Below the pieces are notes generated by a model that did not search any database, had not been told where the DNA came from, and saw only the letters and a list, made by a program, of their open reading frames with translations. From positions 5,638,546 through 5,702,545 of the forward strand of contig OZ005706.1 in assembly GCA_963930775.1 (NCBI GenBank): a stretch of 64,000 nt of DNA, in the 5' to 3' direction. Each line of letters begins with the position of its first letter. Position 1 is the first letter of the stretch. Shown here piece after piece: positions 17,836 to 49,155 of this stretch. Origin of the DNA: Cliona cf. orientalis. Lineage: Eukaryota > Porifera > Demospongiae > Clionaida > Clionaidae. The translations under genes and the position numbers were made by a program.

Positions 17836-19192
17836 CCAGGCTCCGCCCAACTTTCTCCTTGTCCAATCAGATTGTCATCTGATCATGTGGAAAGAGACAC
17901 AGAGAGGTTAAAGGTGACAACAAGTGATATCCAAGAGTCTAAAGGTTAGCTACAATAACAGCATTAATCCAGCAATTAATTTCATCCATGTGTATACCGC
18001 CATTTTACAGATAGCGGTAATGCTACAAGATCGCCTGATGCTGGTACACAGCCTGCTGATAGTGGAGGGGCTACAGTGGAACACCAAGGTACATCTTTTT
18101 TGTGTGAACTTTCGGCCGACAGTGATGGTGTATTATGATGTGTAGCTGGTGCAATGAGTGATGGAGCACATCAAACTGAAGAGATGTCCAATCCTATGGC
18201 AACCGCCACCTCTCAGTCCAAAGGTTAGCCATAATACTATCATTCAGTATTCTTTGTTCAGTTGTTGAGTATAGTGTCTGTACAAAATTTAATATCAGAG
18301 TCTCCTGATGCAACTCCAACTGCTGGCAGTAGGTTTCCCATTCTCAGTCCTGACAAACTGTGCAAGGAAGAAAAGGAGCAGCTTCACCAAAAGCTATACA
18401 CCGACTCGGAGGAGCTGATGTACAAGTTTCAAGAGATCTTTGCTGCCATGAGAGACTCACTGAAGAGTAGACTCATCTCCATCGCAGAAATATCCAGCCA
18501 CTTGGACATACTCGGCCCAATAAAACCGACCTACCACGATTCCGGCCTGCCTCCATTACACCACCAGCTACCAGGACTAGCTGACGCTAAGACTGTCGAT
18601 GCTGTCATGTCCGTCGTCAAGGACAACTGTTCGTTCTTCAATTATCGTATGCTGGAGCACCTGGTGAACAAACTAGGAACAGAGCAAGACAAAGAGAGGC
18701 TAGCCAGGTACAAGGAGGACTTTGCTAAGTACGGTGAGCGCCGCGTATTTGAGTGTCCTCCAAAAGTTGGTGAAATGAGGGAAGAGGGCTACGCCAACAT
18801 GATTGTGATACTGGATGATGCTTTTGATAATTGTAGCACAAACCATATCCATAGCTTCATTGGCAATTTGCAGAAGACGCTAAATATAACACATCTGAAG
18901 CTTTGTCGCATTAATCTCGGAAGCATCAAGCTGATCTTTCAAATCCCTCTTTCTGTCCAGCAAGCCATCTTTCCTCTCTCCAGTGAGCAGGAAGCAGAGT
19001 TATCCAGTCTAGGTGTTGTACAGCTCTCCTGTGGGGACTACCAGTTCACTCCACAACAGACTGAGGTAAAGTTAACAGATCCAAGTGGATGGATTTGTTG
19101 AGTAGCTCCATTTTCTGTGTTTCCTAGGAAGTGGTAGAGGAGCCAGTGACTGATGGAGACTCAGATGTCCACAGCAACAACACATGTGAGTT
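17836..19192 (+). pseudogene. Array copy A: middle domain only, 2A, death domain and ankyrins lost
   Basis: Exons corresponding to copy D are 17888-17943 (partly deleted), 18011-18090, 18150-18225 (an extra exon), 18296-19063 (complete middle domain, 256 codons open) and 19127-19184 (linker). The exons for the leader-2A, the second exon and the death domain are missing: sequence jumps from the promoter-proximal CAGATCA of copy D (38962) to GGATCATGTGG (40664) across a shared GATCA. The linker-2 and ankyrin exons are also absent. The middle domain remains intact, but I see no good start codon or 3' end. Confidence 0.7.
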
Positions 19193-19374
19193 ACTTGTCA
19201 CTAGGTGTAATAGTACTAGATGTACAAACCATTGTTTGGAGCATACCCTTGACAGTGGAGCCTGAGTGAGCCTAAAATAATTATTATTAATGATGCATCC
19301 ATACATCCAGCATGCAACATATGTACAGTGTTGATAAACATAGGGTTATTACCTATTGCCTGGTGAAGGCAAAG

Positions 19375-19643
19375 ATGTTAACAGGCATGAGAGGAAAGAA
19401 GTGCTGATCCTGGAAAAAATTCCAGGATCCAGCCGAGATTCGAACTCGGGACCTTCTGATTACTAGCTAGTCAGACACTCTTACCACTGAGCTACTGGAC
19501 CCAGATGGCAGCAGAGTGTAGGATGATGGTATTTCCCTAGGACCTCATTCGAATCAAGGCTACACTTCTCTCCTCCCTAGGTGGTGATCCTGTGGAATTT
19601 TTCCAGGATCAGCACTTCTTTCCTCTCATGCCTGTTAACATAT
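19375..19643. mobile_element. Foldback MITE carrying a tRNA-like sequence
   Basis: The arm ATGTTAACAGGCATGAGAGG (19374) continues AAAGAAGTGCTGATCCTGG and recurs inverted at about 19603-19642. The ends contain TTAA (piggyBac-like target, inferred). The tRNA-like segment lies inside, at 19426-19501 on the minus strand. Confidence 0.75.
19426..19501 (-). tRNA. tRNA-Thr(AGT)-like sequence, probable pseudogene
   Basis: On the minus strand: a 7-bp acceptor (GGTCCAG/CTGGATC, one G-U), D arm GCTCAGTGGTAAGAGT, anticodon stem TCTGA/TCAGA, T arm CCGAG-TTCGAAT-CTCGG. The A and B boxes are recognisable. The anticodon loop is 11 bases (CTAGCTAGTAA) instead of 7. Removing one AGCT gives CTAGTAA with anticodon AGT (Thr) and a 72-base molecule. 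The extra bases lie 5' of the anticodon, not at the usual intron site, so the molecule is probably non-functional. It lies within a foldback element. Confidence 0.6.
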
Positions 19644-20048
19644 GTACAGTGTATGGTGGTACAATCATCAAAATAGTGTGACTCTACAGATATATGCAAA
19701 ATAGTCTTTTGCGTATTCAAATGCCCCATACCACTCTAATTTATGTTAGTTTTATGCTGGACTTTATGGGTGGACGTGTCAGAGAAACTAAATTTTGCTT
19801 GGTATATTAAACTTGGAGCTCAAGTCTGCATGCACCAGTACTCGGCTGATCTTTTTTTCACATCCGCTATTGTGGCCACTCCTCAGGCCAGTTAAGGACT
19901 GGGACCAGCTAAATTTTACTGTTTTTACCATGTCTTGTAAGCATAGTTACAGCAAAATGAAAAGTAATGAAGTAATGTGACAGTTATCCCAGGTTCTTCA
20001 ACCTTTGATGACACCTCTTTTAGCCCCGCCCATCAAACCGCAACGGCC

Positions 20049-20175
20049 ACACCTCCATTTTCGTGGAAGCAAACTCCCTCGGCACCACACTAGCCACTCA
20101 AAGAGCCCGTTCTCGATCCTCAGCTTGATGCTTGGGTCCTGGAGACCTTGGACCAAGGAGATGGAGAGTTGAAGT
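20049..20175 (-). pseudogene. UBASH3-like phosphatase fragment (unit A)
   Basis: The minus strand encodes DPSIKLRIENGLFEWLVW, aligning to the middle of the UBASH3 histidine-phosphatase domain, then runs into unrelated sequence at about 20049. The upstream edge ends at the same CCAAG junction as fragments C and D, so they share one founding breakpoint. No catalytic His motif is present. Confidence 0.7.
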
Positions 20176-20287
20176 CGGGACACCTAAAGATGTGCTGAAT
20201 CAGCATAACGAGCCCCACCCACTTTAGGAGACAAGATGAGCCACTCCCACTTTAGGTTTACAGATCTCAGTAATCTCATCACTAGAA

Positions 20288-20500
20288 TTTCTTTCTTGCC
20301 AGTGAAGCAAACAAGTGAATTTTCGTGCCTCTGTAATCGACGCAATTCACGTCTCAGTGAAGTTGTTTCGCGTTGACCTCTTAGATTGTCTACATCCTTT
20401 TACCATTTCACAGCAAGTAAGTCAGTATTGTAGTCTCGTTACCCAGCCCCCTGCATGCACGCTAGCCGCGGTGGAGTGGGGTGATAGTGAGAGATCAACA
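20288..20500 (+). promoter_or_regulatory. Conserved 5' region of the array, copy B
   Basis: The same block as at 17573-17835 and 46433-46700 (TTTCTTGCCAGTGAAGCAAA ... CTTAGATTGTCTACATCC ... GCTAGCCGCGGTGGAGTGG). A half-element (TAGTCTCGTTACCCAGCCCC, ~20430) replaces a few bases. After 20500 the sequence leaves the unit; the leader, 2A, death-domain and middle exons are absent from this copy. Confidence 0.4.
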
Positions 20501-20835
20501 TGGATCAGCTTGGCGGTGAACTTCTCAGCCATGGATGAGCTAAATAGCCATAGTAGTAGTTTCTTACTTTGATTTATAACATTTTTGTCGTTTGCAATTT
20601 TTTAAAATGATTGTTTGGCAGAGAGAGGTGAAAATCAACAAAAGTGCCACTCCCACTTTCTGTTTAAAGCCTTCTTTTGAGAAACTGGAGGGGTAAGTTA
20701 GAAATTGCAAACGATAGATCTTTAGATATTACTTACATAAGTACTATGAGCGACAGAACTCGTCGAACCATCTTGTTCCAACACCCCGCTTAGCACAGTC
20801 TACGTATTCTCATAATATTATACTAGTCTCGCGCG

Positions 20836-22693: not shown

Positions 22694-23930
22694 GGTAATT
22701 CTGAGTTGTCATCAATGGCTGCTGGACTGGCTGTGGGCAAACCTGGGGATACTGCCTCCATCAGTGCTGACTCAGCACTAGGGAGGAGCAGTGTTATCAC
22801 TGGCACTACAGCCGGAGTGACACAGTTCAGTGAGGTGAGTCAGATCACTGACTGCTACTGCATGGTCTGGGCTGTTCTAATGTCCCATATTCGATTCCCA
22901 GGATCTGGTGGACAGAGAATTAGGTGATCTTGGAATGGGAATGGGACATGGTATAGCTGGTGCATCAACTAAAAATGAACTATTTCAAATATCAGCCAGG
23001 GGAGACTTGAAGAAAGTAAAAGAACTTATTGAGGAGAAGCAATTTGATCCACTACAGAAAAAAGGAAAGTTTGGAGCGAATGCTCTTCACTACTCAGCTC
23101 GATATGGACAGCTTGGAGTGCTGAGATATATCATCGAAGAGAGGGGATGTAGTCCAGCAAGTCAAGACAATCGAGCATGGACACCTCTTCATTATGCAGC
23201 TCTTGGTAAACATCTTGATATAGTCCACTACCTGGTTGCCGAGCAACAGATGGATCCACTGTGTTGTGATGACACTGGCACTACTCCACTACATACTGCT
23301 TCTGAGGGTGGGGACATTAATGTCGTGAGATATCTAGTGAATGAACTAAGCAAGTTTCTTCCACTCAAGGATATAGTCACTAGTAGAGGCAAAGATGGAG
23401 CAGCTCCTCTCCATCTCGCTGCTTTGTATGGACATTTAGAAATAGTAAAGTTCTTTGATGCTAATTTGAACTGTGATCCTAATATTGCTCTACCTGTTGA
23501 GTACCATGCAGGGTAGGACTACTGGACTTGGAGGTAGAATTGCTCTTCATGATGCTGCCCAACGAGGACATCTGCATGTCATCAAATACTTAGTAGAACA
23601 GTGTAACTGTAATCCATCACACTTGGACAGTGAGAGAGTAACACCGCTGCACCTCGCAGCTAAGTGTGGTCATCTTGAGGTATTACGGTACCTCACCCTG
23701 GAGCACTGCGGCACTGTGACCCACTATGTATGACCAAGAATAACAACACACCTCTTCATGATGCTGCCAGACGTGGCCACCTTCAACTTGTTAGGTTCTT
23801 CATTGAAGTGCTCCACTGTCCTCCTGATGTTAGAGGACAGCTAAACACGACACCACTGGAACAAGCACGTAGCCGAGGTCACCGCCATGTTGTACGATAT
23901 TTAGAATCCAGTCATCCTAAACTTCAGTAA
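22694..23930 (+). pseudogene. Array copy B: linker plus ankyrin repeats with two frame breaks
   Basis: Linker exon 22694-22833 (GLAVGKPGDTASISADSALG) is followed by ankyrin exon 22902-23930, aligning throughout with copies C and D. A 4-base insertion at about 23507 (ACCATGCAGGG versus ACCAGGG) creates an in-frame TAG. A 5-base excess at about 23705 restores the original frame. Nine ankyrin units are recognisable (TPLHYAALGKH, TPLHLAAKCGH and so on). No leader, 2A, death domain or middle domain precedes it. Confidence 0.75.
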
Positions 23931-23974
23931 ATTTTAATTTGTGTTCATCACTGCGTGTACATCTGTGGTATATG

Positions 23975-25449: not shown

Positions 25450-26990
25450 ATAAACTGAGTATGGACATACATGGCACAGAACTACGCAGAGTCTAACATC
25501 AACAATCACTGCAGGCATCTCCAATCAAATCGGATGTTTGCTGCGTGAGTGAGAGGTGGGATGTTCTTTCCAAACTCGCTCTAGACCTCCTGACACACAC
25601 AATGAGTAGGGGATCTTCTGGACAATCTTGGTCAGCTCCTGGGCAGTGCGGGGCTGAGCTCCAAATAGCTGCCTGGTACAAGCCTCCAGCGTAGCAGCGT
25701 GACCGACAAACATCACATTGCCAGAAGCTGGCCCAATCGTCTTCAGAATCAGCCGGGTAATGTTAACATTCTCTTGTAGAATTCCAAGTGCGTCTCGTTT
25801 GGTTTGAGGTCTTGAAGAGCGACCTGTGGCACATAACTGGTGTCCACGATTAGGTCACATTTGCTGAGCTCAGCAGGTGTCATGAATGTGGGGAAACTCC
25901 CTCGGCACCACGCTAGCCACTCAAAGAGCCCGTTCTCGATCCTCAGCTTGATGCTCAGGTCATGGGGACCTTGGATGATGGCGTTTGCTGTCTGGACACA
26001 GCGCAGTGCGGGAGAGCAGTAGATGTATTGGATCTGTATTCCTTGCTCTCTTATGCCTTCGCCCGTCAGTTGAGACTGGAAAAAACCAGTTTCTGTGATC
26101 GGAGAGTCCTTCATGAAGTCGCTTGGTCCTCCTTTGCGTTTTGGTATCTCCTTTGGCATGTTCAGATTTCTCCGGTGATAGCAGCCGTTTGTGTCAAATG
26201 AGAGCTGGATCCACTGCTTACCAAAAGTCATGTCGACTCTCTCTGCGTGTCTGAAGATAAAAAGCCGTCGTGGTCCGAAATCTTGAGGTGGGATGGGCGG
26301 AGCATTCTCCTCAATCGGGCTACCTCCGTCTGCGATGTAATTGGTCACATCATGATCATTTTTCTTGATTCGTGGTTTTTGCACTTTTGCGTAGAGTTCT
26401 TCGACATTTCCTTGATCGGGGAGCAGTCCAGCTGCATCGTCATAGCACTGTTCGTCTTCGGTCCTTCGTAGGGAGTCTTTTTGAGAGAGGGACGGGGGGC
26501 AGACGGATTTTGAAGGGAAGGGGAGAGAGTCACTCCCGGAGATTACCCATGACCTGTAGGGAGAGAATTTGGATAGCTGAGCACATTAGTATATTCAATG
26601 TCTGACGGTAGCAAATAATCAAAGGGGGTTACAAGTGTTGATGCCCCCTTTAATTTCTGACATAATTTTACATTAGATATCCCCCTATTCCATCTTCCCA
26701 TATTCGTACATTATACTATTCGGCCTTCAATGTACAATTTTGCAACTACACCACATATAATATGGGTGTGCGATTCATAGTATAAGCTATCCTCAGTTAC
26801 TATCGATTCAGAATCTATCATCATACTTAAATAGCCTATTGACTCTATTATTAATGTTAACCACATTGTAGCTACGTCTACCTGTGTAGAGTCTAGCAGT
26901 CTGAGTCTTTTGTCTTCTCGACGTAGTTGCCGGGATAGAGGCTGGACATGCCTGAGTTCTGAGAGGTACCAAAGAACCAACCTTCACTGT
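25450..26990 (-). pseudogene. UBASH3/STS-like phosphatase (SH3 and histidine-phosphatase exons), broken
   Basis: Exon 26990-26882 encodes the C-terminal half of an SH3 domain (SEGWFFGTSQNSGMSSLYPG). Exon 26553 to about 25450 encodes the phosphatase domain, starting with linker ELYAKVQKPRIKKNDHD and then LFIFRHAERVDMTFGKQW with the RH(G/A)E-type catalytic His. UBASH3 proteins dephosphorylate tyrosine-phosphorylated regulators of antigen-receptor and kinase signalling. Three faults are visible: TAG soon after the SH3 half (after DSDC); a 1-base deletion at ~25791 relative to fragment D, ending the frame at MLTLPG before the second catalytic His block (VGHAATLEACTRQL, out of frame); and a ~27-base deletion near 25555. 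No UBA or 2H exons were found upstream. It may be a pseudogene or contain assembly errors. Confidence 0.72.
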
Positions 26991-28404: not shown

Positions 28405-31400
28405 ATGATGGATGGAGTTGATCTCGACGTTTCCCAGGCCTGTGTCGATCTTCTCCCTGAGAAGTATGATCGTCGCCGGATCAGCGGGGTCCTTGCAATT
28501 AGGAGGTTGTCCAGCCGTCACTACAAGAGGCAGATGAGCGAGGGGGACGTGTGTAGTGTATGGGTGCTACTGCTCCTTCTCGTCTGCTCCCTGCATCACG
28601 TGACTCACTCCAAGCAATGGCGGTCATTCAAGAGACGCCATTGGCTCCTTGTCTTCTTTGTCTCTTTGCCGCTGGGTTTTAGTTGGAAGATTGTAAAGAA
28701 ACTGTTGGCTGTGGTTTGTAAGATCGTGTTCGAACTGTTGGCTGTAGTTTGGAAGATTGTAAAGAAATTGTTCAAACTGTTGGCTGCAGTGTGTGGTACA
28801 TTGGCTATCGGCTGCAAATTTTATTATCTTCTGTGGCTGTTTCTCAAATGGTATTTCCTAACGGCAGAACTCTGTAAACAGTTAGACTACAATGCCACTG
28901 ATATCGGACAGAGCAGTGATGTGGTGGGGTTAAAGGTCACCAAGGAGCCAGTTAGCCACGTTTCTTATGAGGTATTCATGTACTCTGACGTGGGGTGGGT
29001 GTGGTCTGGGTCAATCCAGCTTCGAGCAGCTCAGCTGGTCATACGTCAACAACTCATCTTGTCTGGAGATGTGGAACTCAACCCTGGACCTCTCGACCAA
29101 GGTATTCCAATCCTGTCCTTATAAGTTTTGCATAGATATGGTAGCGATTCTCAGTGCTTAACAAAATATTATTCTCTCTTTATTTAGATCAAAAGATTGA
29201 AGAAGTTCTTATGACCGTTGACAATAAAACTTTTGGTATGATTTCAATATTTGCCATCTGCAGCTGCCACGACTATGCGACTCATTTTATACCACTGCAG
29301 AAATAGAGGACTGGAATGTTGTGGTGATAGAGTGCAAGTCACTGGCTGCAAAGTGGAAAGAGTTGAGCATCTCCCTCGGCCTGTCATATGATGTGATCGA
29401 CAACATCAAGGGGTCTGGTGACAACTACCACTGTTGGAGTGAAGCCCTCAATCACTGGATCAAACAAAACTACGACACAGACACGTTTGGTAGACCTTCA
29501 TGGAGAAGTCTTCTCAAAGCTGTGGCAGAAATTGACAAGCTTTTATTTAAAAGAATGGCTGAAAAGCACTCTCAGTCTGGTATGTGTATGTGCAAAGTTG
29601 TAGTGCTTATCATAATATTCTATAATATTTGTAGCTTCCAGTAACGAACCAAAAGAAAGTAATAATTCTCAGGAAGAAGATGTTGCACACATACAAGGTA
29701 CTACATTGACCTTCTATAGTTGATTACAGGACTCATCAGTGTTCACATTAATTATTGTTTTTTCTGATAGACAAACCTGCTTCTCCCAGGACCAGTACAC
29801 CAGCTGCTGTGGTTGCTAGGCCTCGTTTCACCTTCCACTGCTTGAATTTGAAGGATATGAGTGATGAAAGAAAACAAGAACTGCACCAAAAGCTTTATGC
29901 CGAATCAGAAGATATGATATACAAATTCCAGGAACTATTTACGTCGACAACAGACTCTTTAGTGAGGAGAAACATTTCAGCAAAAACACTGGCTCGTCAT
30001 TTAGAGTGCTTGGGACATTTGAAGCCAACCTTTGATGATTCCAGGGAACCTGTTTTTAGACATCAATTGCCAGAACTAAGAAAATCTGAGTCTGTTGACG
30101 ACGCCATGTCAGTGGTCAATAAGTACTGTTCATTCTTTAATTATCGGATGGTGGAATTGATCATACAGAAGCTAGGAACTGAGCAAGACAAAGAGAAGTT
30201 AGCCAGGTACAAGGAGGATTTTACTAAGTACGGTGAGAGACATGTGTTTGAGTGTCCATCGGAAGTTGGTGAATTTTATGAAGAAGGACAAGCGAATATG
30301 TTTGTGATACTGGATGATTCATTTGACAAGTGCAATGGGAACCACTTGTCAGCGTTTGTTAGCAACTTGCAGAAAATTTTGAACATCTCCGATATATCGC
30401 TACGACTATGTCGCATTGGACCTGGAAGCCTGAAGCTCATATTTCAACTCTCTCTCATTGTCCAGCAAACCATCTTTCCCCTCTCCAGTGACCAGGAGGC
30501 TGAGTTAGTCTGCCTTGGTGTTATACAGCTCTCCTGTGGGGACTACCAGTTCACAGTAGACGATATGATGGTAGGTGTCATATTTGTGTTATTTTTCCTG
30601 TACCATGTGTGGGGAGTAGGTAAAGGTTTTCAGCTTGCTAGATTACCGTATAGCCAGAAAATATGGCGGTTTGCCGGTCTATATTACAACCACCAAATTA
30701 AAGTCTGCCAAAATTTCCTACTCGCATGTATACATATGGTGATCCCGTACCGAAATGCCAAATTTAAATCCGCTAATATTAAATTTTTGCAATAGCGATT
30801 TTGGACTCAAACGCCAATTTGAAATTTAATTCCCGCCAATATTTCCAGCTATACGGTACTTTACAGCAGCAAAGACTTAGCTACATACATGTACATGTAT
30901 GTCTCATGCTCAAACTTACGCCATAAAAATGCTATGTTCCTATAATATTGCTACATATATACCTTCAATTTTGTTGCAGGAAGTGGTACTAGAGGAGCCA
31001 GCTACTGATGGAGACTCAGACCACACTGATAGTGGAGGGAGTGTGGTGGACAGCATGGAGGCCTGTGAGTGATAACACTTTACTTCTTGTATAGCACTGC
31101 ATGACTCTCCTTGTAATCCGCAACCCCTGCCCCCCCTCCCCCCCTCTGTCTATGCCTCTCCTCTATGTTGAAACAAGCGACATCTATGTTACAACTAGTA
31201 TAGGTAGTTAAGAGAATTTATAAAGAAAGTTAGTGACATCCCATTGAGTGATGATTAGATAATTACTCCCAAAAGAGATTTAGTTTTTGAGAGTCTTCTC
31301 AAATTGCATGTCATGAAGTCTTGAATATCGAATATTGAATATCTATGACTCACTCATGTATGCACACTACAGGCATTCTGTGTACATTTCTTCCACGTAA

Positions 31401-33090: not shown

Positions 33091-36000
33091 TTATGACCAC
33101 TTTGGGTCAAAGCGCTCTAGCGGGCGCGACACTCGACTACTTCGACGTACTGGTGGATTTTCACTATTTTGGTCTGATTCTGTTTCGTTTGTTTCCAGTT
33201 CCCCATCGCCTGGATCTTCTGGGACTCGTATGAGGTTTCTCCTGTTCCGGCGCAATGTACCTCCAGGAGTAGAAACATTATAAGAGCGTGGTGCTACTTC
33301 CTCTTCTACCACCGCTTCTGTTTCACGGTCAGGCATCCATACTAGATCTCCAGGAATCAACGGGGTTAGGTCTCGGACTCCGTGGTGTCTGTCGAAGTGT
33401 TTCTTTTGATCGTCTTTGAGTTGTTTTTCTCTCGCTTTTAGAGCTACCATATCTGGGACTTGTGGGGTCCGCTGTTCTCGAGTGATAGGAACGACTGTTC
33501 GTACTCTTCGGTTCATGAGTAGTTCCGATGGACTATATCCATTCTGTAAGGGAGTTGATCGATATGAGAGAAGTGCAAGATATGGATCTTTCTCTTTCTT
33601 CAGCAGGTTTTTCACTGTACCTACTGCACGCTCAGCTTCACCATTCCCTTGTGGATGGTAAGGGCTGCTGGTTACATGTTTAAAGTTGTACTCCATTGCA
33701 AACTGAGCGTATGATTCTGCACTGAATTGTGGACCATTATCTGATATCACCAACTCCGGGATTCCGTGTCTCGCGAAAGTGCTCTTCGTGTGTCTGATAA
33801 CTTCATCAGCTGACGTTCCCTTTAGTAGTGCTATTTCGATGTATCGTGAAAAATAGTCGACAATGAGGAGGTAGTTTTGGTGTTTCCACTCGAACAAATC
33901 GGTGGCAACCTTTTGCCAAGGCAACTCAGGAAAGGAGGATGTGATCAAAGGTTGTGCTCTCTGTTTTTGAGCTTTGGAACATTCAGGACAATTCTTAACA
34001 AGTTCATCCAGTTGTCGAGACAATCCTGGCCACCATATAGACTGCCGGGCTCGCTCACGGCACTTTGTGATTCCCTGGTGACCTGTGTGTACTTTGTCCA
34101 GCATGCTCAATTGCATTGATGCTGGAATGATGATTCTGCTCCCTCGTAGGAGTAGACCATTTGCTATCGATATCTCTGCTGATACAGAGTAGTAAGGTTG
34201 TACGGCTCCTGCTACTTCTTGTTTTGCGGGCCATCCTTCTCGACAATAACGCTTAATTTGGTTACACACTACATCTTCCTCCTGCTGTCGTTTGATTTCT
34301 TCCAACTGTTCATCAGTAGCAGGTAGTCCCTGGATCATGGTGTTTATGAAAATATTGGCTTCCTGGTGGAGGATGTGATCTACACCAGTTGGAGTATTGG
34401 TTGGGGCTCTCGAAAGCATGTCTGCTATGACCAATTCCTTTCCCGGAATATGTGAGATTGTAAATTGGTAACGTAACATGCGTAAGCGAAATCGCTGAAC
34501 TCGAAGTGGAAGCTCTTCAAGACTTTTTGAGCTAAATAACGGAACTAGTGGTTTGTGGTCTGTTTGGATGTGAAATACAAGACCGATCAAGTAATCAGAG
34601 AAACGTTCACATGCCCAGGTAAGCGCTAAGGCTTCCTTTTCAATTTGGGCGTACCTCTGCTCCGTGGGGGTCATTGATCGTGAAATATAGGCAACAGGCT
34701 TCATCTGGCCCTCAGGCTGCCTCTGAAGTAAGACTGCTCCGAGTCCAAATGAGGAAGCGTCGGCAGATACGACTGTGTCGAGCTGGGGATCAAACAAAGC
34801 GAGAATTGGACTCGTAGACAGCATTTGCTTGACCTGATTGAAAGCTCTTTGTTGTGGCTCAGCCCACACCCACTGGTTACCCTTCACGAGCAGGTCTCGT
34901 ATCGGTTTCGTGACGTCGGCAAGGTTCGGAGCAAATTTGCTCATCTGGTTTACGGTTCCGAGAAATCGGCGTACCTCTCCAACGTTGCTGGGAATTGGCA
35001 TGTTTCTGATCGCATTCACTTTCTCGGGGTCTGGTCGTACTCCAGACTCATCAATCACTTGGCCTAGGAATGAGACTGTGTTTTGGGAGAATTTACATTT
35101 CTCCTTGTTGAGCGTCAAGCCTTCTTGCTGAAGTCGGCAAAGTACTCGGTAAAGGCGATTGTCGTGCTCTTTGGGAGTCTTACCATGCACTAGCACGTCA
35201 TCGATCATGCAGACTACTCCCTCGATGTCACCCAGAAGCTCAGACATGCGGCGTTGGAAATGCTCGGGTGCGGAGGTTATGCCAAAGGGCAACCTATGAA
35301 AACAAAATCTTCCAAATGGTGTGATGAAAGTTGTAAGCGGGATTGACTCGGGGGATAGGGGTATTTGCCAAAACCCTGAATTGGCATCTAATTTAGAAAA
35401 TATTTTAGCACCAGCCAGCTGGGCAAGGATTTGATCTACAACCGGTAAGGGGTATCTCTCCCTACAAACACTGTCATTTAAACGAGTAAGATCGACACAG
35501 ATGCGTACCTTTCCATTGCCTTTCGGCACGACCACCATTCCTGCGCACCAATCAGTCGGTTGGTTGACTTTGGAAATAACTCTGAGCTTCTCCATACGCT
35601 CCAGCTCCGCCTTAACGGATTTCATTAGTGGAATCGGGACGCGTCGTGAGGTCGAGAGGGCATACGGTTTTGCTCCTTCCATTAGCTTGATGGTGTATTT
35701 GCCTTGCAGCTGTCCAAGGCCCGTGAAGAGATTCGGAAATTGTTGAATTGGGTTTAGTTGCTTTGCTTGTACTCCTCGAACTCGTTGTACTAGACCCAGT
35801 GCTTCTATGGCGGGTCGTCCAAGGAGGGGTTTATGTAGCTTTGCTGCCACATAGATATCCTGTTTGCTCTGTTGGCTGTCTCTGCTAAGTATGGCAGAAA
35901 ATAGACCTTTTACCGGCAGGACTGCGTTACTTGGTCCTCTCAAGGTCTGTTTGACTGGTGAGAGTGGAGGACTACCTATCTTCTTGTACACAGGCTCCGG

Positions 36001-36555
36001 GATCACACTGACTTCAGCACCCGTATCAATGTGGAATTCGACTGGCTTACCCTCCAGCTGTAGCGATATCAACCAGGGGTTGTCGTGTTCTGTATCCACT
36101 GATCCGAGAAATACGTCATCATACTCGTAGTCGTCGCATTCGTAATCGTTGCTTGCTGAATCGTGATAAACCTCCCCGACCTTTTTCTTAGATCTGCACA
36201 TTAATTTGTAGTGTCCACGCTTTCCGCATTCTCGACATGTAGCGTCTTTGGCCGGGCAGTGTTGACGATCGTGGGGTGGTGATTTGCCACATCGACCACA
36301 TACTGTCTTGTTGACTGGTTGTTTTGGTGCCCATCGGTGTTGGGGTCCCTGCTCCTTCTTGTTGGACCTCTTGTGGAGATTGCTCACGTTTGCTGTGGTC
36401 TCCTTTTGTGCCCCCCTTAACGTGGGCTGTTGCTGCTTTATTGTCTCCGCCTCACGAACTTGCATGGGTGATAGCTTTTTGGAGATCCAGCTTCTCGTCC
36501 AGCTGGAGTTTGAGCGAAAGATTCGAGTCGCGTAACCCAACGACGATACGATCAC
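33091..36555 (-). CDS. Pol of the Ty3/gypsy element
   Basis: A 1154-codon open frame; useful protein probably starts near 36459 after a +1 shift from Gag. Order: two zinc knuckles (CGRCGKSPPHDRQHC, CRECGKRGHYKLMC), aspartic protease (HIDTGAEVSVI), reverse transcriptase, RNase H (end region SHIPGKELVIADMLSRAP), integrase HHCC (HTGHQG ... CPECSKAQ) and DDE core (DYFSRYIEI, SDNGPQF, HPQGNGEAERAV), and a short basic C-terminus. The frame is uninterrupted. The RT-RNaseH-integrase order identifies Ty3/gypsy. Confidence 0.95.
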   Translation of the reverse strand: MIVSSLGYATRIFRSNSSWTRSWISKKLSPMQVREAETIKQQQPTLRGAQKETTANVSNLHKRSNKKEQGPQHRWAPKQPVNKTVCGRCGKSPPHDRQHCPAKDATCRECGKRGHYKLMCRSKKKVGEVYHDSASNDYECDDYEYDDVFLGSVDTEHDNPWLISLQLEGKPVEFHIDTGAEVSVIPEPVYKKIGSPPLSPVKQTLRGPSNAVLPVKGLFSAILSRDSQQSKQDIYVAAKLHKPLLGRPAIEALGLVQRVRGVQAKQLNPIQQFPNLFTGLGQLQGKYTIKLMEGAKPYALSTSRRVPIPLMKSVKAELERMEKLRVISKVNQPTDWCAGMVVVPKGNGKVRICVDLTRLNDSVCRERYPLPVVDQILAQLAGAKIFSKLDANSGFWQIPLSPESIPLTTFITPFGRFCFHRLPFGITSAPEHFQRRMSELLGDIEGVVCMIDDVLVHGKTPKEHDNRLYRVLCRLQQEGLTLNKEKCKFSQNTVSFLGQVIDESGVRPDPEKVNAIRNMPIPSNVGEVRRFLGTVNQMSKFAPNLADVTKPIRDLLVKGNQWVWAEPQQRAFNQVKQMLSTSPILALFDPQLDTVVSADASSFGLGAVLLQRQPEGQMKPVAYISRSMTPTEQRYAQIEKEALALTWACERFSDYLIGLVFHIQTDHKPLVPLFSSKSLEELPLRVQRFRLRMLRYQFTISHIPGKELVIADMLSRAPTNTPTGVDHILHQEANIFINTMIQGLPATDEQLEEIKRQQEEDVVCNQIKRYCREGWPAKQEVAGAVQPYYSVSAEISIANGLLLRGSRIIIPASMQLSMLDKVHTGHQGITKCRERARQSIWWPGLSRQLDELVKNCPECSKAQKQRAQPLITSSFPELPWQKVATDLFEWKHQNYLLIVDYFSRYIEIALLKGTSADEVIRHTKSTFARHGIPELVISDNGPQFSAESYAQFAMEYNFKHVTSSPYHPQGNGEAERAVGTVKNLLKKEKDPYLALLSYRSTPLQNGYSPSELLMNRRVRTVVPITREQRTPQVPDMVALKAREKQLKDDQKKHFDRHHGVRDLTPLIPGDLVWMPDRETEAVVEEEVAPRSYNVSTPGGTLRRNRRNLIRVPEDPGDGELETNETESDQNSENPPVRRSSRVSRPLERFDPKWS

Positions 36556-36958
36556 GAATCATCTCCTCCTTTAAGGCACCATAATTGCAGTGCTCTGACA
36601 GAGTATACAAGGCAGTGATGAATGTATCTACACTCTCACCTTCTTCCTGCTTGCGCCTATTAAACACGGCGCGCTCATAGATAATATTCTTTCTCTTGAC
36701 AAAGTGCGAGTCGAATTTATTCTTGACGGTTTCATACTTTTTCTTGTCTTCATCTGATAGATCGAAGGAGTGAAATATGTCATCGGCTTTCTCGCCCATC
36801 GTGTAGATGAGTGTGTTCACTTGAGTCTCCTCTCCCTTTTCCTCGAGACCAGAGGCTGCTCTAAAGCGTTCGAATCGTCGAATCCATCGTGTCCACTCGT
36901 TAGGACTGCTGAAATCGAAAGGCTGGGGAGGAACAACTTGGTATGTGGCACTTGCCAT
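36452..36958 (-). CDS. Gag of the Ty3/gypsy element
   Basis: 168 codons, beginning MASATYQVVPPQPFDFSS and containing the capsid-like WTRWIRRFERFRAASGL and ADDIFHSF segments typical of gypsy Gag. It ends with TGA at 36454-36452, just before the zinc-knuckle region, which lies in the overlapping pol frame. Gag packages the element RNA. The end CAT-GCA-AGT-TCG-TGA overlaps the pol frame by about 100 bases, implying a frameshift to make Gag-Pol. Confidence 0.9.
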   Translation of the reverse strand: MASATYQVVPPQPFDFSSPNEWTRWIRRFERFRAASGLEEKGEETQVNTLIYTMGEKADDIFHSFDLSDEDKKKYETVKNKFDSHFVKRKNIIYERAVFNRRKQEEGESVDTFITALYTLSEHCNYGALKEEMIRDRIVVGLRDSNLSLKLQLDEKLDLQKAITHASS

Positions 36959-37031
36959 ACTCAGATTCAGCGAGAAAAGTGTTTATCAACATCTAACGGC
37001 AAAATGATAGTGGATCCCGCCGCTGCCACCA

Positions 37032-38846: not shown

Positions 38847-39116
38847 TAAACATCCACCATTTTGTTCTTCCTAGAGTTACGAGTGTCGTTGATCTGCTGG
38901 TGGGCCAGGCTATCTGTCGTCCAGGTTCCACCCAACCTTCTCCCTGACCAATCAGATTGTCGTCAGATCAGCCACGCCCTCCTATTTTCATTTTTGATCA
39001 ACAATAATTAATATCAGCTGATGTGTGATTTGTGTGTTGTGTGGTGGGCGTGGTTTGGGTCACTCCTGCTCGGAGCGGCCTGGTTGGTCATTGCCCTGCG
39101 TCTCATCATGTCTGGA

Positions 39117-39140
39117 GATGTTGAGCTCAACCCTGGACCT
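39117..39140 (+). other. 2A-like motif (copy D)
   Basis: DVELNPGP at codons 33-40 of a leader that starts at ATG 39021, preceded by a hydrophobic signal-like stretch (AWLVIALRLIMSG). Confidence 0.88.
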
Positions 39141-39377
39141 ATCGACCAAGGTTGGTATCTCAGCAATGCCTGCCATCAGTGCCGTTAACGTTCATTAATG
39201 ATATTCATGATATTATTTTTATAGAAGATCAAGATATTCTCTCTAAAGTGGATGACACAACTTTGGGTATGTAATTATGTGATAAGGTACCCCGTTGTAG
39301 CTAGCTAATGTATAGCTAAAATTTTTTGAGGGATACAATTTTTTCTCAATACTTGAAAAGTTTGATACAACAAAAGG

Positions 39378-39802: not shown

Positions 39803-42800
39803 CAAGGTTGCAATAGCTAATAATTAAGCCAATCCAAACAAAAAAAAGAGGAAACGAAAAGTACATTTAAAGGAGACAAGTACAGGGGATGATAAGGAGA
39901 TGAAAAATAGGTTTCAAGGAGACAAGTACATACTAGGGAAAATAATAATAAGATAAAGGGTAAATAAGATAAAGGAGGAATAAAAGGGATTATGGGGCAG
40001 ATGAATAATGTTTAGAGATGCAAACTTTGAAGGAAGATGCACTGGGACTATTTACAACATAAAGAGAAAGTGCTGTTTTCATGAATAACTGAGCAAAGTA
40101 CGAAAATCAGACCTCCAAATAGCGTGATTATACGATTTGTATGATGAGCAGTGAAAACCGAAATTGCATAGATTGCCTATATTCGTCAAAATTAAATCCC
40201 TCGAAAATTTTCCACTATATATAGCATAATTATACTATTATGTGAGCTAATGAATATTGATAATAATATTTATTCATTGCTTTTTCTTCCCAGAGGAGGA
40301 TGACTGGAACATAGTGATTGATGAGTGCAGCTCAGTGGCTGCTAAGTGGGAGCAGGTCAGTGGGTTCCTTGGACTCCGTCTCTCCCTCATCGACACCATC
40401 AAACAGAACCACCCTGGAGACAACGTTGGCTGTTGGAATGATGCCCTTAAGCACTGAATCAAACACAACTATAACACAAGCAAGTTCCATGAGCCATCGT
40501 GGAGGTCTCTGCTCAAAGCCATCGCTAGGGTCGACAGGGCACTCTTTAAAAAATTAGCTGCTGAGCACCAAAGTAAGCATAAACTGAGTTCGATTTTTAG
40601 TACATTTTTGAAGAGAGAAAAATTATTTTATATCTGTTGCAGTGAGTGTAAGTGTTGAAGTGGATCATGTGGAGAGAGACATGGAGAGGTTAAAGGTGAC
40701 AAAAAGTGATTTCCAAGAGTCTAAAGGTCAGCTACAATAACAGCATTAACTCAGCGAATACTTTCTTCAATGTGTACTGCCATTTTACAGATAGCGGTAA
40801 TGTCATAAAGTCGCCTGATGCTGGTACACAGCCTGCCGACAGTGGAGGGGCTACAGTGGAACACCAAGGTACGTCTTTTTGCGTAAGAATTCTTACAAAC
40901 TAGCTTTATTGCTTGTATGACCTGTCTAATTTACTATTTTATCATCTTCGTGTTTTATCCTCTCAGAACCAATTTCTGAGTCAGACCCAACAGTACCCAC
41001 TGTATCTCCTCAACAAAAGGAGCAGCTTCGTCGAAAGCAATACTTCGAGTCCGAGCAAATGATGTACAAATTTCAGAAGCTTTTCACGGACACAAAAAAG
41101 TCACTACGAGAGGAAAAAGTTCCCGTTGATGAGCTAGTTGGCCATTTGGAGTGTTTGGGCTACATCAAACCAACGTTCACTGACTCTGGTCTTCCATCTT
41201 TACGCCACCAGCTACCAGGACTAGCTGAAGCTAAGACTGTCGATGCTGTCATGTCTGTTGTCAAGGACTACTGCTCCTTTTTCAACTACCACATGGTGGA
41301 GCACATCATTGATGAATTCGGGATGAAGCGAGACAAGGAGAACATGGCCAGCTACAAAGAGGACTTCACCAAGTATGCCGAGTGCTGCATTACACCGTGT
41401 CCTTCAGAAGTTGGGAAAATGAGTGAAGAGGGGTGCGCTAACTTATTCGTAACACTGGATGATTCGTTTGACAATTGCGCCGTCAGTCACCTCAATGTAT
41501 TCATTGGCAACTTGCGGAAGATCTTGAAGATTCCATCTGCTATTGTGCTCAGGCTGTGTCGTGTTAATCTCGGAAGCATCAAGCTGATCTTTCAAATCCC
41601 TCTTTCTGTCCAGCAAGCCATCTTTCCTCTCGCCAGTGAGCAGGAAGCAGAGGTATTCAGTCTAGGTGTTGTACAGCTCTCCTGTGGGGACTACCAGTTC
41701 ACTCCACAACAGACTGAGGTAAAGTTAACAGAGCCTAGTGGATGGATTTGTTGAGTAGCTCCATTTTCTGTGTTTCCAGGAAGTGGTAGAGGAGCCAGCG
41801 ACTGATGGAGACTCAGACCACACTGATAGTGGGGCAACTCTCGACAGCAAAAACACATGTGAGTTAGCGTAATTTGTTTGTACTCTGGATCATCCATGTT
41901 TTCAATGCTACATGTAGCTAAATGCAGTTTTAAAGATGTGGGAATGGGCCTGGGGACAATAGGCACTGATCCAAAAATTTTGCATGGAAGGTGGCTACCA
42001 CTGGTAAAGATAAAATTATACTGGTGCAAGGGGGTGGCTGATTGATAAATAAATGGTGGACGTCTCCAACACTATTACTTACGTTTCGGTTTGGCTAGCC
42101 ACTCTATCTCTATCTACCTCCCTGGACTAGCACCTGGATGGGCCTTCATTTTGATTCCACAATCGTGTACATGCACAGGTATGGCACTAGATGTACAAAC
42201 CATTGTTTGGAGCATACCCTTAACAATGGTGCACCCCTCTCTCTCTCAAATTAGACAGCGATAAACATTTATTCATCCTTTAATTAGTGTTCGCCATGAT
42301 GCATCTATACATCCAGTGTGCAACACATGTATGGTGGTGCAATCATCAAAATAGCTTAGTATTGCTCTACAGATATTATTGTGAAATAGTCTGTTGCATA
42401 TTAATTCAAATGCCCCCATACTGGTGAGCGTGTCAGAGAAACTAAATTTTGCTTGACTTATTAAACTTGTAACTCAAATCTGCACTAGTACTCAGCGTTT
42501 TCTTCACATCTGCTACATATCGTAGCTGCTCAGGCTAACCCCCACTATATTAAAGGCCCTGCATATTTCTATACTTTGTGTGACAGACAGACAGACAAGC
42601 ATAATGGATTGCTTTACTCCTTGCTGCGCATACGTGTGCGGGGTAACAATTTCTGGAGCATTCCCTTATAAATTATGGTTTAAGGCTTCAGTTTTGACAA
42701 TCTAGCCATATTATTATGCATTTTAATTACACAGTGATAAATATCTCTTTATCCTTTAATTGGGTAGTACCTGTCTGTGACTTTAGTTCTCTCATCCACT

Positions 42801-43258: not shown

Positions 43259-45065
43259 TGTCCCACTAGCTGCTCCTGCTTATGATTGTCGAACTCAGAC
43301 TTCCGCTATAATATACAGGCCCTGCATGGCACTAGTCTATTATTTTGTGTGATTATAGGTGATGCTGAGTTGTCATCGATGGTTGCTGGACTGGCTGTGG
43401 GCAAACCTGGGGATACTGCCTCCATCAGTGCTGACTCAGCACTAGGGAGGAGCAGTGTTATCACTGGCACTACAGCCGGAGTGACACAGTTCAGTGAGGT
43501 GAGTCAGATCACTGACTGCTACTGGTCTGGGCTGTTCTAATGTCCCATATTCCATTCCCAGGATCTGGTGGACAGAGAATTAGGTGATCTTGGAATGGGA
43601 ATGGGACATGGTACATGTATACCTGGTGCAGCAACTAAAAATGAACTACATCTAGCATCAGGCAGGGGAAGTTTGAAGAAAGTAAAAGAACTCATTGAGG
43701 AGAAGCAATTTGATCCACTACAGAAAGAAGACCGGTTTGGAGTGAATGCTCTTCACTACTCAGCTCGACATGGAAGGCTTGGAGTGCTGAGATATTTCAT
43801 CAAAGAGAGGGGATGTAGTCCAGCAAGTCAAGACAGTCGAGCATTTACACCTCTTCATTATGCAGCTCTTGGTAAACATCTTGATATAGTCCGCTATCTG
43901 GTTGCCGAGCAACAGATGGATCCACTGTGTTGTGCTGATGATGGCACTACTCCACTACATCTAGCTTCTCAGGCTGGGGACATTAATGTCGTGAGATATC
44001 TAGTGAATGAACTAAGCAAGTTTCTTTTACTCAAGGACATAGTCACTAGCAGAGGCAAAGATGGAGCAGCTCCCATCCACCTTGCAGCTTTGTATGGACA
44101 CTTAGAAATAGTAAAATTCTTCGCCGCTGAACTTAAGTGTGATCCTACTATTGCTCTACCTGTTGAGTACCAGGGTAGGACTACTAGACTTGGAGGTAGA
44201 ATTGCCCTTCATGATGCTGCCCAAGGAGGACATCTGCACATCGTCAAATACTTAGTAGAACAGTGTAACTGTAATCCATCGCACTTGGACAGTGAGAGAG
44301 TAACACCGCTGCACATGGCAGCTCAGTATGGTCATCTTGAGGTAGTGCAGTACCTCACCCTGGAGCAGCACTGTGATTCACTGTGTATGGCCAAGAATAA
44401 CGACACTCCTCTTCATGCTGCTGCCTACTGTGGCCACCTTCAACTTATTAGATTCTTCGTTGAAGTGCTCCACTATCCTCCTGACGTTAGAGGATGGTAC
44501 AACATGACACCACTGGACACTGCAAGGTCACCGCCATGTTGTAAAATATTTAGAGTCCATTCATCCTAAACTTCTGTAAATTTTATTTTAATTTGTGTTC
44601 ATCACTGCGTGTAATTCTTCTTTCGCTATTAATTATTTTATGTCTATGTCAATTTTTTTTTTGATGATTAATTTTTGAGCCAAACACACGACAATAGTGC
44701 TCATTGCTGATTGGATTGATGTTTGTGGAGGGTGGAGCCAGAGGTTGTATAGTTTAATTAATCAGTTCCTTAAGCATTACATCATCAGACTCTGCCCTCC
44801 AACACATACCACACGTGTCACAAATTAAAAATTTAGCCTGGCAAACAGTATGCACTAGAATAACATTATATTTTCAGTAATTTGTAATTCAGTTATACTT
44901 TAGTGATTATGAGTCAAGTACCAGACTAGACCAAACAATAATTATTACAACATCACCAATTATCAGTGAAATTAAAGAAAATTACCTCAGTAATAAGTAT
45001 TATGACATAATTGTGATGATTGAGAAAATTCAACAATTGTATGTGGACAATAACTGCATGCTGCA

Positions 45066-45625
45066 TTAAAAAACTGAGTATGGACATACATGGCACAGAA
45101 CTACGCAGAGTCTAACATCAACAATCGCTGCAGGCATCTCCAATATTTCAAATCGGATTTTTGGTGTGTGAGTGAGAGGTGGGATGGGAGGATCGATAAA
45201 GTCCCAAGTGGTATTCTTTCCAAACTCGCTCTCCTGACACACACAAAGTCCACAGTAGGGGATCTTCTGGACAATCTTGGTCAGCTCCTGGGCGGTGCAG
45301 GGCTGAGCTCCAACTAGCTGTCTGGTACAAGCCTCCAGCGTAGCAGTGTGACCGATAAACATCACGTTGCCAGAAGCTGGCCCAATCGTCTTCAGAATCA
45401 GCCGGGTGATGTTAAACATTCTCTTGTAGAATTCCAAGTGTGTCTCGTTTGGTTTGAGGTCTTGAAGATCGACCTGCGACACATAACTAATTAGGCCACA
45501 TTTGCTGAGCTCAGCAGGTGCCATGAATGTGGGAAAACTCCCTCGGCACCACGCTAGCCACTCAAAGAGCCCGTTATCGATCCTCAGCTTGATGCTGGGG
45601 TCCTGGAGACCTTGGACCAAGAAGA
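45066..45625 (-). pseudogene. UBASH3-like phosphatase fragment (unit D), longest open C-terminus
   Basis: The minus strand reads DPSIKLRIDNGLFEWLAWCR, then NVMFIGHTATLEACTRQL (second catalytic His block), KIPYCGLCVCQE and WDFIDPPIPPLTH, aligning continuously with the C-terminal half of UBASH3 phosphatase domains. The N-terminal half with the RH(G/A)E motif is missing. The left edge is the same CCAAG junction as in fragments A and C. It shows what the ancestral frame was at positions where 25450-26990 is broken. Confidence 0.8.
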
Positions 45626-45689
45626 TGGAGAGTTCAAGTCGGGACACCTAAAGATGTGAAGTGACATCGTTATCAGTTGCTCTGCATGA

Positions 45690-46426: not shown

Positions 46427-46432
46427 AGATTC

Positions 46433-46700
46433 TTTCTTGCCAGCGAAGCAAACAAGTGAATTTTCGTGTCTCTGTAATCGACGCAATCCACGTCTCAGTG
46501 AAATTCTTTCGCGTTGGCTTCTTAGATTGTCTACATCCTTTTACCATTTCACACCAAGTAAGTCAGTATTGATGATCTGTACGCTAGCCGCGGTGGAGTA
46601 GAGTGATAGCGAGAGATAAACATCCGCCATTTTGTTCTTCCTAGAGTTACGAGTGTCGTTGATCTGCTGGTGGGCCAGGCTATCTATCGTCCAGGCTCCG
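46433..46700 (+). promoter_or_regulatory. Conserved 5' region of the array, copy E
   Basis: The least interrupted version of the block: TTCTTTCTTGCCAGCGAAGC ... GCTAGCCGCGGTGGAGTA ... CATCCGCCATTTTGTTCTTC ... ATCTGCTGGTGGGCCAGG. The leader ATG is at 46791. Confidence 0.45.
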
Positions 46701-46886
46701 CCCAACCTTCTCCTTGACCAATTAGATTGTCGTCAGATCAGCCACGCCCTCCTATTTTCACTTTTCATCAACAATAATTAATATCAGCTGATGTGTGATT
46801 TGTGTGTTGTGTGGTGGGCGTGGTTTGGGTCACTCCTGCTCGGAGTGTCCTGGTTGGTCATTGCCCTACGTCTCATCATGTCTGGA

Positions 46887-46910
46887 GATGTTGAGCTCAA
46901 CCCTGGACCT
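46887..46910 (+). other. 2A-like motif (copy E)
   Basis: DVELNPGP in the leader exon, preceded by VIALRLIMSG. The peptide is identical to that of copy D. Confidence 0.88.
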
Positions 46911-47274
46911 ATCGACCAAGGTTGGTCTCTCAGCAATGCCTGCCATCAGTGCCATTAACGTTCATTAATGATATTCATGATATTATTTTTATAGAAGATC
47001 AAGAGATTCTCTCTAAAGTGGATGACACAACTTTGGGTAGCTATGTAATTATGTGATAATAAGATACCTGTGATTTAATACACTGTAGCTAGTTAGCTAC
47101 TGCATAGCTAAACTTTTTCGAGCGATACAATTTTTGCTGATTTCGTGAATTATTGAGCACAGAACTAAAATCAGACCCCCCAAATAGCACAATTGTACCA
47201 TATTATGTATGATGAGCAGTGAAAATTAAATCCAAAATGGTATAGATCGCCTATAGCTATCCGTGAAAATTGAA

Positions 47275-47492
47275 TACCATAGGTAGGGTTTTAATTGTGA
47301 GTATCTATTAATTGCGAATTGCGAGCTTTTCTACATTTTGCAATTAATAGATTCGCAAACATAAACATGCACATATACTACAGTACGGTACGGGGTCACC
47401 TATCGCAATTATTGGATTCGCAATTTGGCCTGACTTGACTAGAACGCAATTATTAAACTACGCAATTAAAACCCGTCGTACGGTAATCATTT
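47275..47492. repeat. Inverted-repeat element with GGGTTTTAATTG ends
   Basis: GTAGGGTTTTAATTGTGAGT (47285) pairs with GCAATTAAAACCCGTCGTAC (47463). AATTATTG/CAATTAATAGAT motifs repeat inside. It sits in the copy E intron before the death domain; noncoding. Confidence 0.6.
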
Positions 47493-49155
47493 TCCACTAT
47501 ATATGGCATACTATTGTATGAGCTGATGAATACACTCATTGATATTCATATTTTTTTTCTTCCCAGAGGAGGATGACTGGAATATAGTGATTGATGAGTG
47601 CAGCTCAGTGGCTGCTAAGTGGGAGCAGGTCAGTGGGTTCCTTGGACTCCGTCTCTCCCTCATCGACACCATTAAACAGAACCACCCTGGAGACAACGTT
47701 GGCTGTTGGAATGATGCCCTCAAGCACTGGATCAAACACAACTACAACACAAGCAAGTTCCATGAGCCATCATGGAGGTCTCTGCTCAAAGCCATTGCTA
47801 GGGTCGACAGGGCACTCTTCAAGAAATTAGCTGCTGAGCACCAAAGTAAGAATAAACTGAGGTCGATTTTTAGTAGATTTTTGAAGAGGGAAATTTCATT
47901 TATATCTGTTGCAGTGAGTGTAGCTAAGTGTTGAAGTGGATCATGTGGAGAGAGACATGGAGAGGTTGAAGGTGTCAACAAGTGATATCCAAGAGTCTAA
48001 AGGTTAGCTACAATAACAGCATTAACTCGGCGAATACTTTCATCAATATGTACTGCCATTTTACAGATAGCGGTAATGCCATAAAGTTGCGTGATGCTGT
48101 TACACAGCCTGCCGACAGTGGAGGGGCTACAGTGGAACACCAAGGTGTGTATTGTGCTTAAGAAATTCTTACAAACTAATTGTATTACATTAGCATGATT
48201 CTAAAGGTTTGTATGATCTGCCCAATCTACTATTCGTGTTTTATCATCTCAGAACCAGTTGCTGAGTCAGACCCAACACTACCTTCCATATCTCTTCAAC
48301 AGAAGGAACAGCTTTGTGAAAGAAGATGCTTTGAGTCCGAACAAATGATGTACAAATTTCAGAAGCTATTCACAGACACAAAACGGTCACTACGAGGGAA
48401 AAAAGTTCCAGTTGATGAGCTAGTTGGTCATTTAGAGTGCTTAGGATCAATCAAACCAACATATGTAGATATTGGTCGATCTCCACTGCGAAGCCAGCTA
48501 CCAGGACTAGCTGATGCTAAGACTGTCGATGCTGTCATGTCTGTTGTCAAGTCAAGGACTACTGTTCATTCTTCAACTACCACATGGTGGAGCACATCAT
48601 TGACGAATTCGGGACGAAGCAAGACAAGGAGAACATGGCCAGCTACAAAGAGGACTTCACCAAGTATGCCGAGTGCTGCATTACACAGTGTCCTTCAGAG
48701 GTTGGGAAAATGAGTGAAGAGGCGTGCACTAACTTATTCGTAACACTGGATGATTTGTTTGACAATTGCGCCGTCAGTCACCTCAATGTATTCATTGGCA
48801 ACTTGAGGAAAATCCTGAAGATTCCTTCTAATATGTCGCTCAGGCTGTGTCGCGTTAATCTCGGAAGCATCAAGCTGATCTTTCAAATCGCTCTTTCTAT
48901 CCAGCAAGCCATCTTTCCTCTCTCCAGTGAGCAGGAAACAGAGTTATCCAGTCTAGGTGTTGTACAGCTCTCCTGTGGGGACTACCAGTTCACTCCACAA
49001 CAGACTGAGGTAAAGTTAACAGACCCTAGTGGATGGATTTGTTGAGTAGCTCCATTTTCTGTGTTTCTAGGAAGTGGTAGAGGAGCCAGTGATTGATGGA
49101 GACTCAGACCACACTGATAGTGGGGCAACTGTCAACAGCAAAAACACATGTGAGT

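Follow-up and report, generated by a model that had tools for sequence, protein, structure and literature searches.

StopGo/2A leader exons as a candidate N-terminal module of death-domain genes in a demosponge genome

Results

We analyzed a window of 64,000 nucleotides (C18:5638546-5702545, within the 216.8-Mb assembly used for all genome searches), which holds four related gene copies, all on the plus strand. In three of them an exon ends in SGDVELNPGP-(L/I)DQ, which includes the core of a StopGo/2A element, a sequence at which ribosomes are predicted to skip the bond between G and P (NPG|P). These are the leader exons 28405-29101, 39021-39150 and 46791-46920 described in the original prediction, made from the window alone, and their motifs are the sole ones there: a six-frame scan found DVELNPGP at 29068, 39117 and 46887 only, each time on the plus strand and at the end of an open exon. 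From these exons, phase-1 joins lead via a mini-exon to exons for a death domain (Death), a TRADD-N-like domain and ankyrin repeats, as listed here:

28405-29101, plus strand: long leader exon of the intact copy, 228 residues to NPG, with hydrophobic segments, ending in ..LILSGDVELNPGPLDQ G|GT (phase-1 donor)
29062-29091, plus strand: 2A core SGDVELNPGP of the intact copy, with the predicted skip between G and P
29188-29235, plus strand: mini-exon DQKIEEVLMTVDNKTF, phase 1 to phase 1
29301-29579, plus strand: Death-domain exon of the intact copy (Pfam Death E 0.0026, under the curated cut-off; structure model and Foldseek)
29635-29697, plus strand: linker exon of the intact copy, from the spliced model
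29771-30570, plus strand: TRADD-N-like exon of the intact copy (PF20694 E 0.008, under the cut-off; structure model)
31637-32656, plus strand: ankyrin-repeat exon of the intact copy, frame open over 31637-32653
39021-39150, plus strand: short, N-terminal signal-like 2A leader exon MCDLCVVWWAWF..SGDVELNPGPIDQ (hydropathy)
39224-39268, plus strand: mini-exon EDQDILSKVDDTTLG
40290-40568, plus strand: Death exon with a single in-frame TGA
41002-41703, plus strand: TRADD-N-like exon of the 39021 copy
43541-44573, plus strand: ankyrin exon of the 39021 copy, frame break near 44525
46791-46920, plus strand: short, N-terminal signal-like leader exon with the third 2A (hydropathy)
46994-47038, plus strand: mini-exon EDQEILSKVDDTTLG
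47566-47847, plus strand: Death exon of the 46791 copy, open
48276-48994, plus strand: TRADD-N-like exon, frameshift near 48551 (PF20694 24.4 bits against a cut-off of 23.7, over 48521-49042)
18301-19050, plus strand: TRADD-N-like exon of the first (17836) copy
22884-23927, plus strand: ankyrin region of the first (17836) copy, frame-broken

Among the 2A-bearing copies of the window, the one at 28405 is the only intact copy. Its leader does run for 228 residues to NPG, and a spliced model joining the five exons from 28405-29101 to 29771-30570 is open for 629 residues, from the ATG through the TRADD-N-like exon, with all four junctions in phase 1 and GT-AG introns. The view of this copy as fully open holds for these residues and for the ankyrin exon 31637-32653, while any exons between the TRADD-N-like and ankyrin exons lie outside the rebuilt model. 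The same order of domains had been proposed for all three copies, and it is unbroken at 28405 only: the 39021 copy has an in-frame TGA at 40455 within its Death exon and a frame break close to the end of its ankyrin exon, at about 44525, and the 46791 copy has the TRADD-N frameshift listed above and no ankyrin match downstream of that exon within the window. The 17836 copy retains the TRADD-N exon and the broken ankyrin region, and no match to a leader, a 2A or a Death exon was found for it within the window. The leaders at 39021 and 46791 start with an ATG and reach NPG after 39 residues; because an in-frame stop lies 4 codons upstream of each ATG, these short leaders may be genuine N-termini.

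AlphaFold predicts a helical bundle for the Death exon of the intact copy, at pLDDT 85.6. In a Foldseek search with this model, the first nine rows were all solved death domains (ankyrin, p84, RIPK1, TNFR1 and others; probability 0.89-1.00, TMq 0.57-0.71, best E 0.06), with E-values that, like those for the TRADD-N-like model, are not significant on their own. With Pfam Death the window copies score under the cut-off, and their relatives L062 and L063 slightly above it. The middle domain that the copies had been predicted to share scores above the cut-off for TRADD-like_N (PF20694) in one copy and below it in others; its model has a mean pLDDT of 70 overall and a C-terminal half that is RRM/ferredoxin-like, the fold reported for TRADD-N (PMC8195603). 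No TRADD-N structure was among the listed Foldseek rows for this model. Judged by profiles and modelled folds, the Death exon is predicted to encode a Death-like domain, as first proposed, and the middle exon a TRADD-N domain. The proposed sponge origin also agrees with the genome: a search pattern that we take to be of silicatein type has three matches, of which two neighbouring ones on C12 read ..DWRTKGAVT.VK.QG.CGASYAFSA.GALEG.. and the third has Cys for Ser, and these silicatein-type genes very probably mark the host as a siliceous demosponge.

A DNA pattern of the D(V/I)ExNPGP type has 152 matches genome-wide, compared with none for the reversed pattern used as control and with a chance expectation of about 0.18 for the octapeptide (independent bases, window composition). 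For the placement tests we merged 150 2A sites, consisting of 136 of the 152 exact matches and 14 found by similarity; two of the other 16 exact matches (L080, L084) were recovered in the similarity search. The six similarity-only sites that were read comprise two exact motifs, two GNIELNPGP (N at p12, on C2) and two GDVELHPGP (H at p16, on C5 and C13). Ninety-two of the 150 sites lie at most 3 kb before a Death exon and 75 at most 1 kb, many at about 200 bases. Conversely, among the matches listed, a 2A lies within 3 kb upstream on the same strand at 91 of 208 Death loci, the search for the motif followed by death domains that had been suggested, and at 53 of 138 TRADD-N loci (the genome has 142 TRADD-N-like matches). 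The other arrangements (upstream opposite, downstream same strand, downstream opposite) number 0, 1 and 0 for each of the two families. The 208 Death loci come from two single 2A-linked death domains used as queries, with 150 scored candidates each. Within 5 kb, 16 of the 103 NACHT loci scored, out of 490 candidates, have a 2A upstream on the same strand, and none has one in the other orientations.

The genes behind these 2A sites differ in architecture. They include Death-Death-NACHT (L063, L066), Death-NACHT (L064) and Death-TRADD-N-NACHT genes (L062; TRADD-N by alignment) and a Death-Death-GTPase-like gene (L068; weak Roc match). The proposed sponge family of 2A-bearing Death/ankyrin genes is thus supported and proves too narrow, because the same module also stands before NLR (NACHT) and GTPase-like genes. 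For 39 of the 150 sites neither Death nor TRADD-N is linked within 6 kb, and C1 beyond 18 Mb accounts for 17 of these; three of the 39 (L062, L068, L076) show a Death-like ORF by inspection, and L070 and L073 have TRADD-N or Death at 8-10 kb only. L079 (C17:639417) is one further 2A-bearing ORF, for which we found neither a Death domain nor, in its vicinity, a Pfam family above cut-off; a second exact match lies 8 kb from it, at C17:631204. D(I/V)ExNPGP also occurs in five retroelement-like stretches (L065, L072, L075, L078, L080), four of them without a phase-1 best donor and one, L078, with PHD fingers by Pfam. Both mobile elements and immune-type genes of one genome may use 2A.

Splice-donor scoring puts the best donor in phase 1 at 57 of the 62 2A sites whose flanks were read. 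The scan pattern admitted D or N only at p12 and N or H only at p16, so that other variants could not show up there. At Death-linked sites the donor lies 0-4 codons past NPGP and the intervening residues vary (LDQ, LT, LDH, VG, GRYP or none). The five sites without a phase-1 best donor are four of the retroelement-like ones and one without a Death domain; the 57 include the retroelement-like L075 and four sites at which no Death domain was found (L069, L071, L074, L077). Death-exon acceptors are in phase 1 in 54 of 57 rows, or 41 of 44 distinct starts, from fetched loci some of which are not 2A-linked. The in-phase splicing first proposed for the window is thus in agreement with the exon anatomy at dozens of loci, which would allow the joins to be made in vivo. 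Between 2A and Death, the exons 39224-39268 and 46994-47038 are mini-exons of 15-16 residues, and a similar DLDYxSVDAxQILG-like stretch stands there in the NLR-type gene L066 and in the public sequences P0059-P0061. By hydropathy only, the leaders contain hydrophobic segments suggestive of membrane insertion, and the short ones resemble N-terminal signals. Stripped of the motif, the long leaders fall into two groups without detectable mutual similarity; L064, a third leader, is too short for such a comparison.

To follow the motif within the leaders we used a leader search of 40 rows, of which 24 are long leaders reaching the motif, 12 short partial matches around it and 4 end short of it; all 24 long leaders carry the exact DVELNPGP (compared by eye). 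In a set of 20 leaders retrieved by their similarity to a leader, which keeps L057 (in-frame stop) and L052 (divergent start), SGDVELNPGP shows no amino-acid change (pN 0) and some synonymous change (pS 0.03-0.20), and an uninterrupted invariant block starts at this motif. The leader regions have dN/dS of 0.27-0.63, and the middle and pre-2A parts diverge strongly between the C18 and C13 groups (pN 0.34-0.40). This codon-level test supports the selection on NPGP that had been suggested, and it finds other leader columns invariant too.

In public sequences, ORF P0149 reads leader-..LLLSGDVELNPGP-LTVDDLKAV..Death in one continuous frame, which indicates that leader, 2A and Death can form a single coding unit. 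The best match that this genome offers is 53% and covers residues 126-221, the Death part of the ORF, whose source is therefore probably another species. Six joined leader-2A-Death query pieces gave 329 public hits; the motif is present in 4 of the best 120, 14 of which were read whole. The motif-bearing P0059-P0061 run through the stretch that separates 2A from Death. Among 54 public relatives of the leader, several are 99-100% identical to loci here and others 41-94%.

Further observations concern neighbouring or related sequences. On the minus strand, 33091-36982, between the 28405 and 39021 copies, is a Ty3/Gypsy-type LTR element, recognized by eye among the listed ORFs, whose pol and gag-like frames are long and open, and 25525-26585 and 45066-45647 are two related histidine-phosphatase-type ORFs between the array genes, presumably UBASH3/TULA-like, which may have co-duplicated with the array. 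A 579-residue open frame at C3:6081578-6082360, with an upstream leader matched in two pieces, is perhaps a retroposed copy. In the public set, P0057 fuses TRADD-N and ankyrin repeats in one ORF, and P0166, on a 2.3-Mb contig, is a Death-SH2 ORF, which has a related death domain in a further kind of adaptor architecture.

Discussion

To our knowledge, very few cellular genes of animals make use of 2A translation. The placement, exon phase and conservation described above suggest that host genes of this demosponge use StopGo/2A as a fixed N-terminal module, conserved and spread genome-wide on death-domain genes, a reading to which we give a probability of roughly 0.75. In such genes, the mRNA would encode a hydrophobic leader, between 29 and about 250 residues long, with (L-rich)(S/C)GDVExNPG|P and 0-4 codons after it, followed across a phase-1 junction, and sometimes a mini-exon, by Death together with TRADD-N/ankyrin, NACHT or GTPase-like parts. 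At NPG|P most ribosomes would skip the bond, releasing a membrane-type leader and a free cytosolic Death adaptor or receptor that starts with Pro, and ribosomes that do not skip would produce a leader-fused form directed to the membrane or the endoplasmic reticulum (ER). With both kinds of ribosome on one mRNA, a set ratio of free and tethered adaptor could result, as described for the 2A of one sea-urchin NLR. We infer a role in immunity.

Several observations weigh against this reading. No listed 2A lies within 3 kb at 85 of the 138 TRADD-N and 117 of the 208 Death loci, or within 5 kb at 87 of the 103 NACHT loci. Using P0149 as query lists many further Death loci, largely on C8, a contig with one 2A match among the matches listed; many of these loci have no listed 2A and were left out of the 208, so the real share of Death loci with a 2A is lower. 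Of 150 Pfam Death hits, 46 were tested and none has a 2A within 8 kb; the 2A-linked death domains are not near the top of that ranking. Given that most loci of these families are without it, 2A marks particular branches of death-domain genes. Tandem duplication also means that the loci are not independent, though they are spread over many contigs and several gene families. In the window, two of the three 2A-bearing copies are broken. The motif block is short, and it is not the sole fixed part of the leader: invariance extends to 89 of the 226 leader columns with good coverage, conservation of the first 90 residues comes close to that of the motif, and gene conversion between paralogues may contribute to this conservation. 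These invariant columns and the kept first 90 residues argue that leader and motif are both under purifying selection, which the codon comparison supports. Finally, the joined 629-residue model gave four public hits, none covering more than 42% of it; three were read and none joins leader/2A to Death, and the fourth (P0056) has the same 42% coverage as P0055. P0149 itself may be genomic, from an intronless gene, or transcript-derived.

We weighed three other explanations. The 2A exons might be relics of non-LTR retrotransposons, which genes took up as first exons and recent duplication has preserved, with no StopGo function. Retroelement-like sequences of this genome do carry the motif: L078 and L080 have PHD fingers (the latter by eye), L072 is endonuclease-like by eye with nothing found by Pfam, L065 has weak HTH matches and similar cores dispersed on C1, and the retroelement-like cores resemble those of the immune genes (LLLAISGDIEVNPGP). 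Unlike the immune sites, however, L065, L072, L078 and L080 have no phase-1 best donor, and a relic would account poorly for the strict co-orientation with Death exons and the purifying selection on leader and motif; we consider it unlikely. An origin of the 2A exons from retroelements is possible and would be compatible with a present function.

Two further accounts appear still less probable, and about equally so. If the motif were retained for a role in signal peptides or membrane anchors, with no recoding, hydrophobic leaders, the short ones resembling N-terminal signals, would be no surprise. Yet what the leader groups have in common is little more than the (L-rich)(S/C)GD(V/I)ExNPGP ending, the unbroken invariant block begins at SGDVELNPGP, and NPGP is no property of signal peptides, so this account is improbable. 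Alternatively, 2A and Death exons might belong to separate or decaying genes, never spliced together, their proximity going back to a single ancestral arrangement that was duplicated in tandem; the tandem arrays on C18, C13 and C5 and the broken copies of the window would fit. Against it, the phase of the donors matches that of the acceptors in different subfamilies of leaders and of Death exons, the mini-exon preserves phase and P0149 is one continuous ORF, which makes this account equally improbable.

A broader form of the preferred reading is conceivable, though we regard it as doubtful: a general StopGo switch before death-domain receptors and adaptors of several architectures, evolved in sponges or early animals, which makes a membrane leader and a free cytosolic protein from one ORF, and whose ratio of skipped to fused product, dependent on the state of the ribosome, would signal stress on translation, viral takeover for example, and bring a death adaptor to the membrane. 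What gives the module its interest is the number of 2A sites that stand within 3 kb before a Death exon, 92 of the 150 listed, across several architectures and in a single animal genome of a lineage far from sea urchins. If active, they would provide many natural cellular 2A elements to test, would point to first exons that gene models may have missed, and would make it testable why death-domain immune adaptors come in skipped and fused forms.

A full-text literature search, which did not cover the eukaryotic 2A survey of Rao et al. 2025 on viral and cellular proteomes, where sponge genes may be included, found no report of 2A in sponge death-domain genes among the papers listed, so that priority is uncertain. 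A term search of a paper on Dysidea avara NLR genes (PMC12909245) for 2A-like, TRADD and leader gave no hit. In Amphimedon, 357 TRADD-N proteins are described, mostly with an N-terminal Death-like domain and commonly with ankyrin or SH3-LRR at the C-terminus (Kaur et al. 2021, PMC8195603). The genes described here share with them the N-terminal Death-like domain, TRADD-N, the variable C-terminus and a very large sponge expansion; a 2A leader is not mentioned for the Amphimedon proteins in the part of that paper available, and no search was aimed at 2A. The 2A of non-LTR retrotransposons (Odon et al. 2013, as cited in PMC4981915) has the same octapeptide and an L-rich stretch upstream. In the window copies, Death, TRADD-N and ankyrin exons follow the 2A, and neither an endonuclease nor a reverse transcriptase does; at four of the retroelement-like sites of this genome, in contrast, the motif is followed neither by a phase-1 donor nor by a death domain. 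With viral StopGo/2A (PMC12846837), the sponge elements share the core octapeptide, an LLLLSG-like upstream class and the tolerated N at p12 and H at p16. In that 2026 study both substitutions were more than 95% active and LLLLSG-like upstream hexapeptides form an active class, which our contexts QLILSG, RLIMSG and LLLISG resemble by eye, with G at p11. Unlike the viral elements, the sponge 2A sits in chromosomal, intron-bearing host genes.

The closest known use is that of sea-urchin NLR genes, where SpNLR2A is reported to give dual targeting (Roulston et al. 2016, PMC4981915); its recoding was put at about 80%, qualitatively and for a single sequence. There, as here, a hydrophobic 2A at or near the N-terminus precedes a death-type domain, and NACHT in some of the sponge genes. 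The two systems differ in phylum and in architecture, since the window genes are Death-TRADD-N-ankyrin rather than NLR: the window copies carry TRADD-N and ankyrin downstream of the 2A, and NACHT follows it at other loci. The SpNLR2A signal has 26 residues; a short N-terminal 2A of this type is present at 39021 and 46791 (39 residues to NPG) and in L064 (29), provided that each starts at its first ATG, whereas the intact 28405 copy, with 228 residues, departs from it, and several sponge leaders are membrane-type and 195-250 residues long. Unlike SpNLR2A, the sponge 2A closes an exon with a phase-1 donor, and its skipping is predicted. As far as the sequences can tell, the StopGo module on sponge death-domain genes is suggested to be a variant of a known use of 2A, extended to dozens of genes of innate-immunity type.

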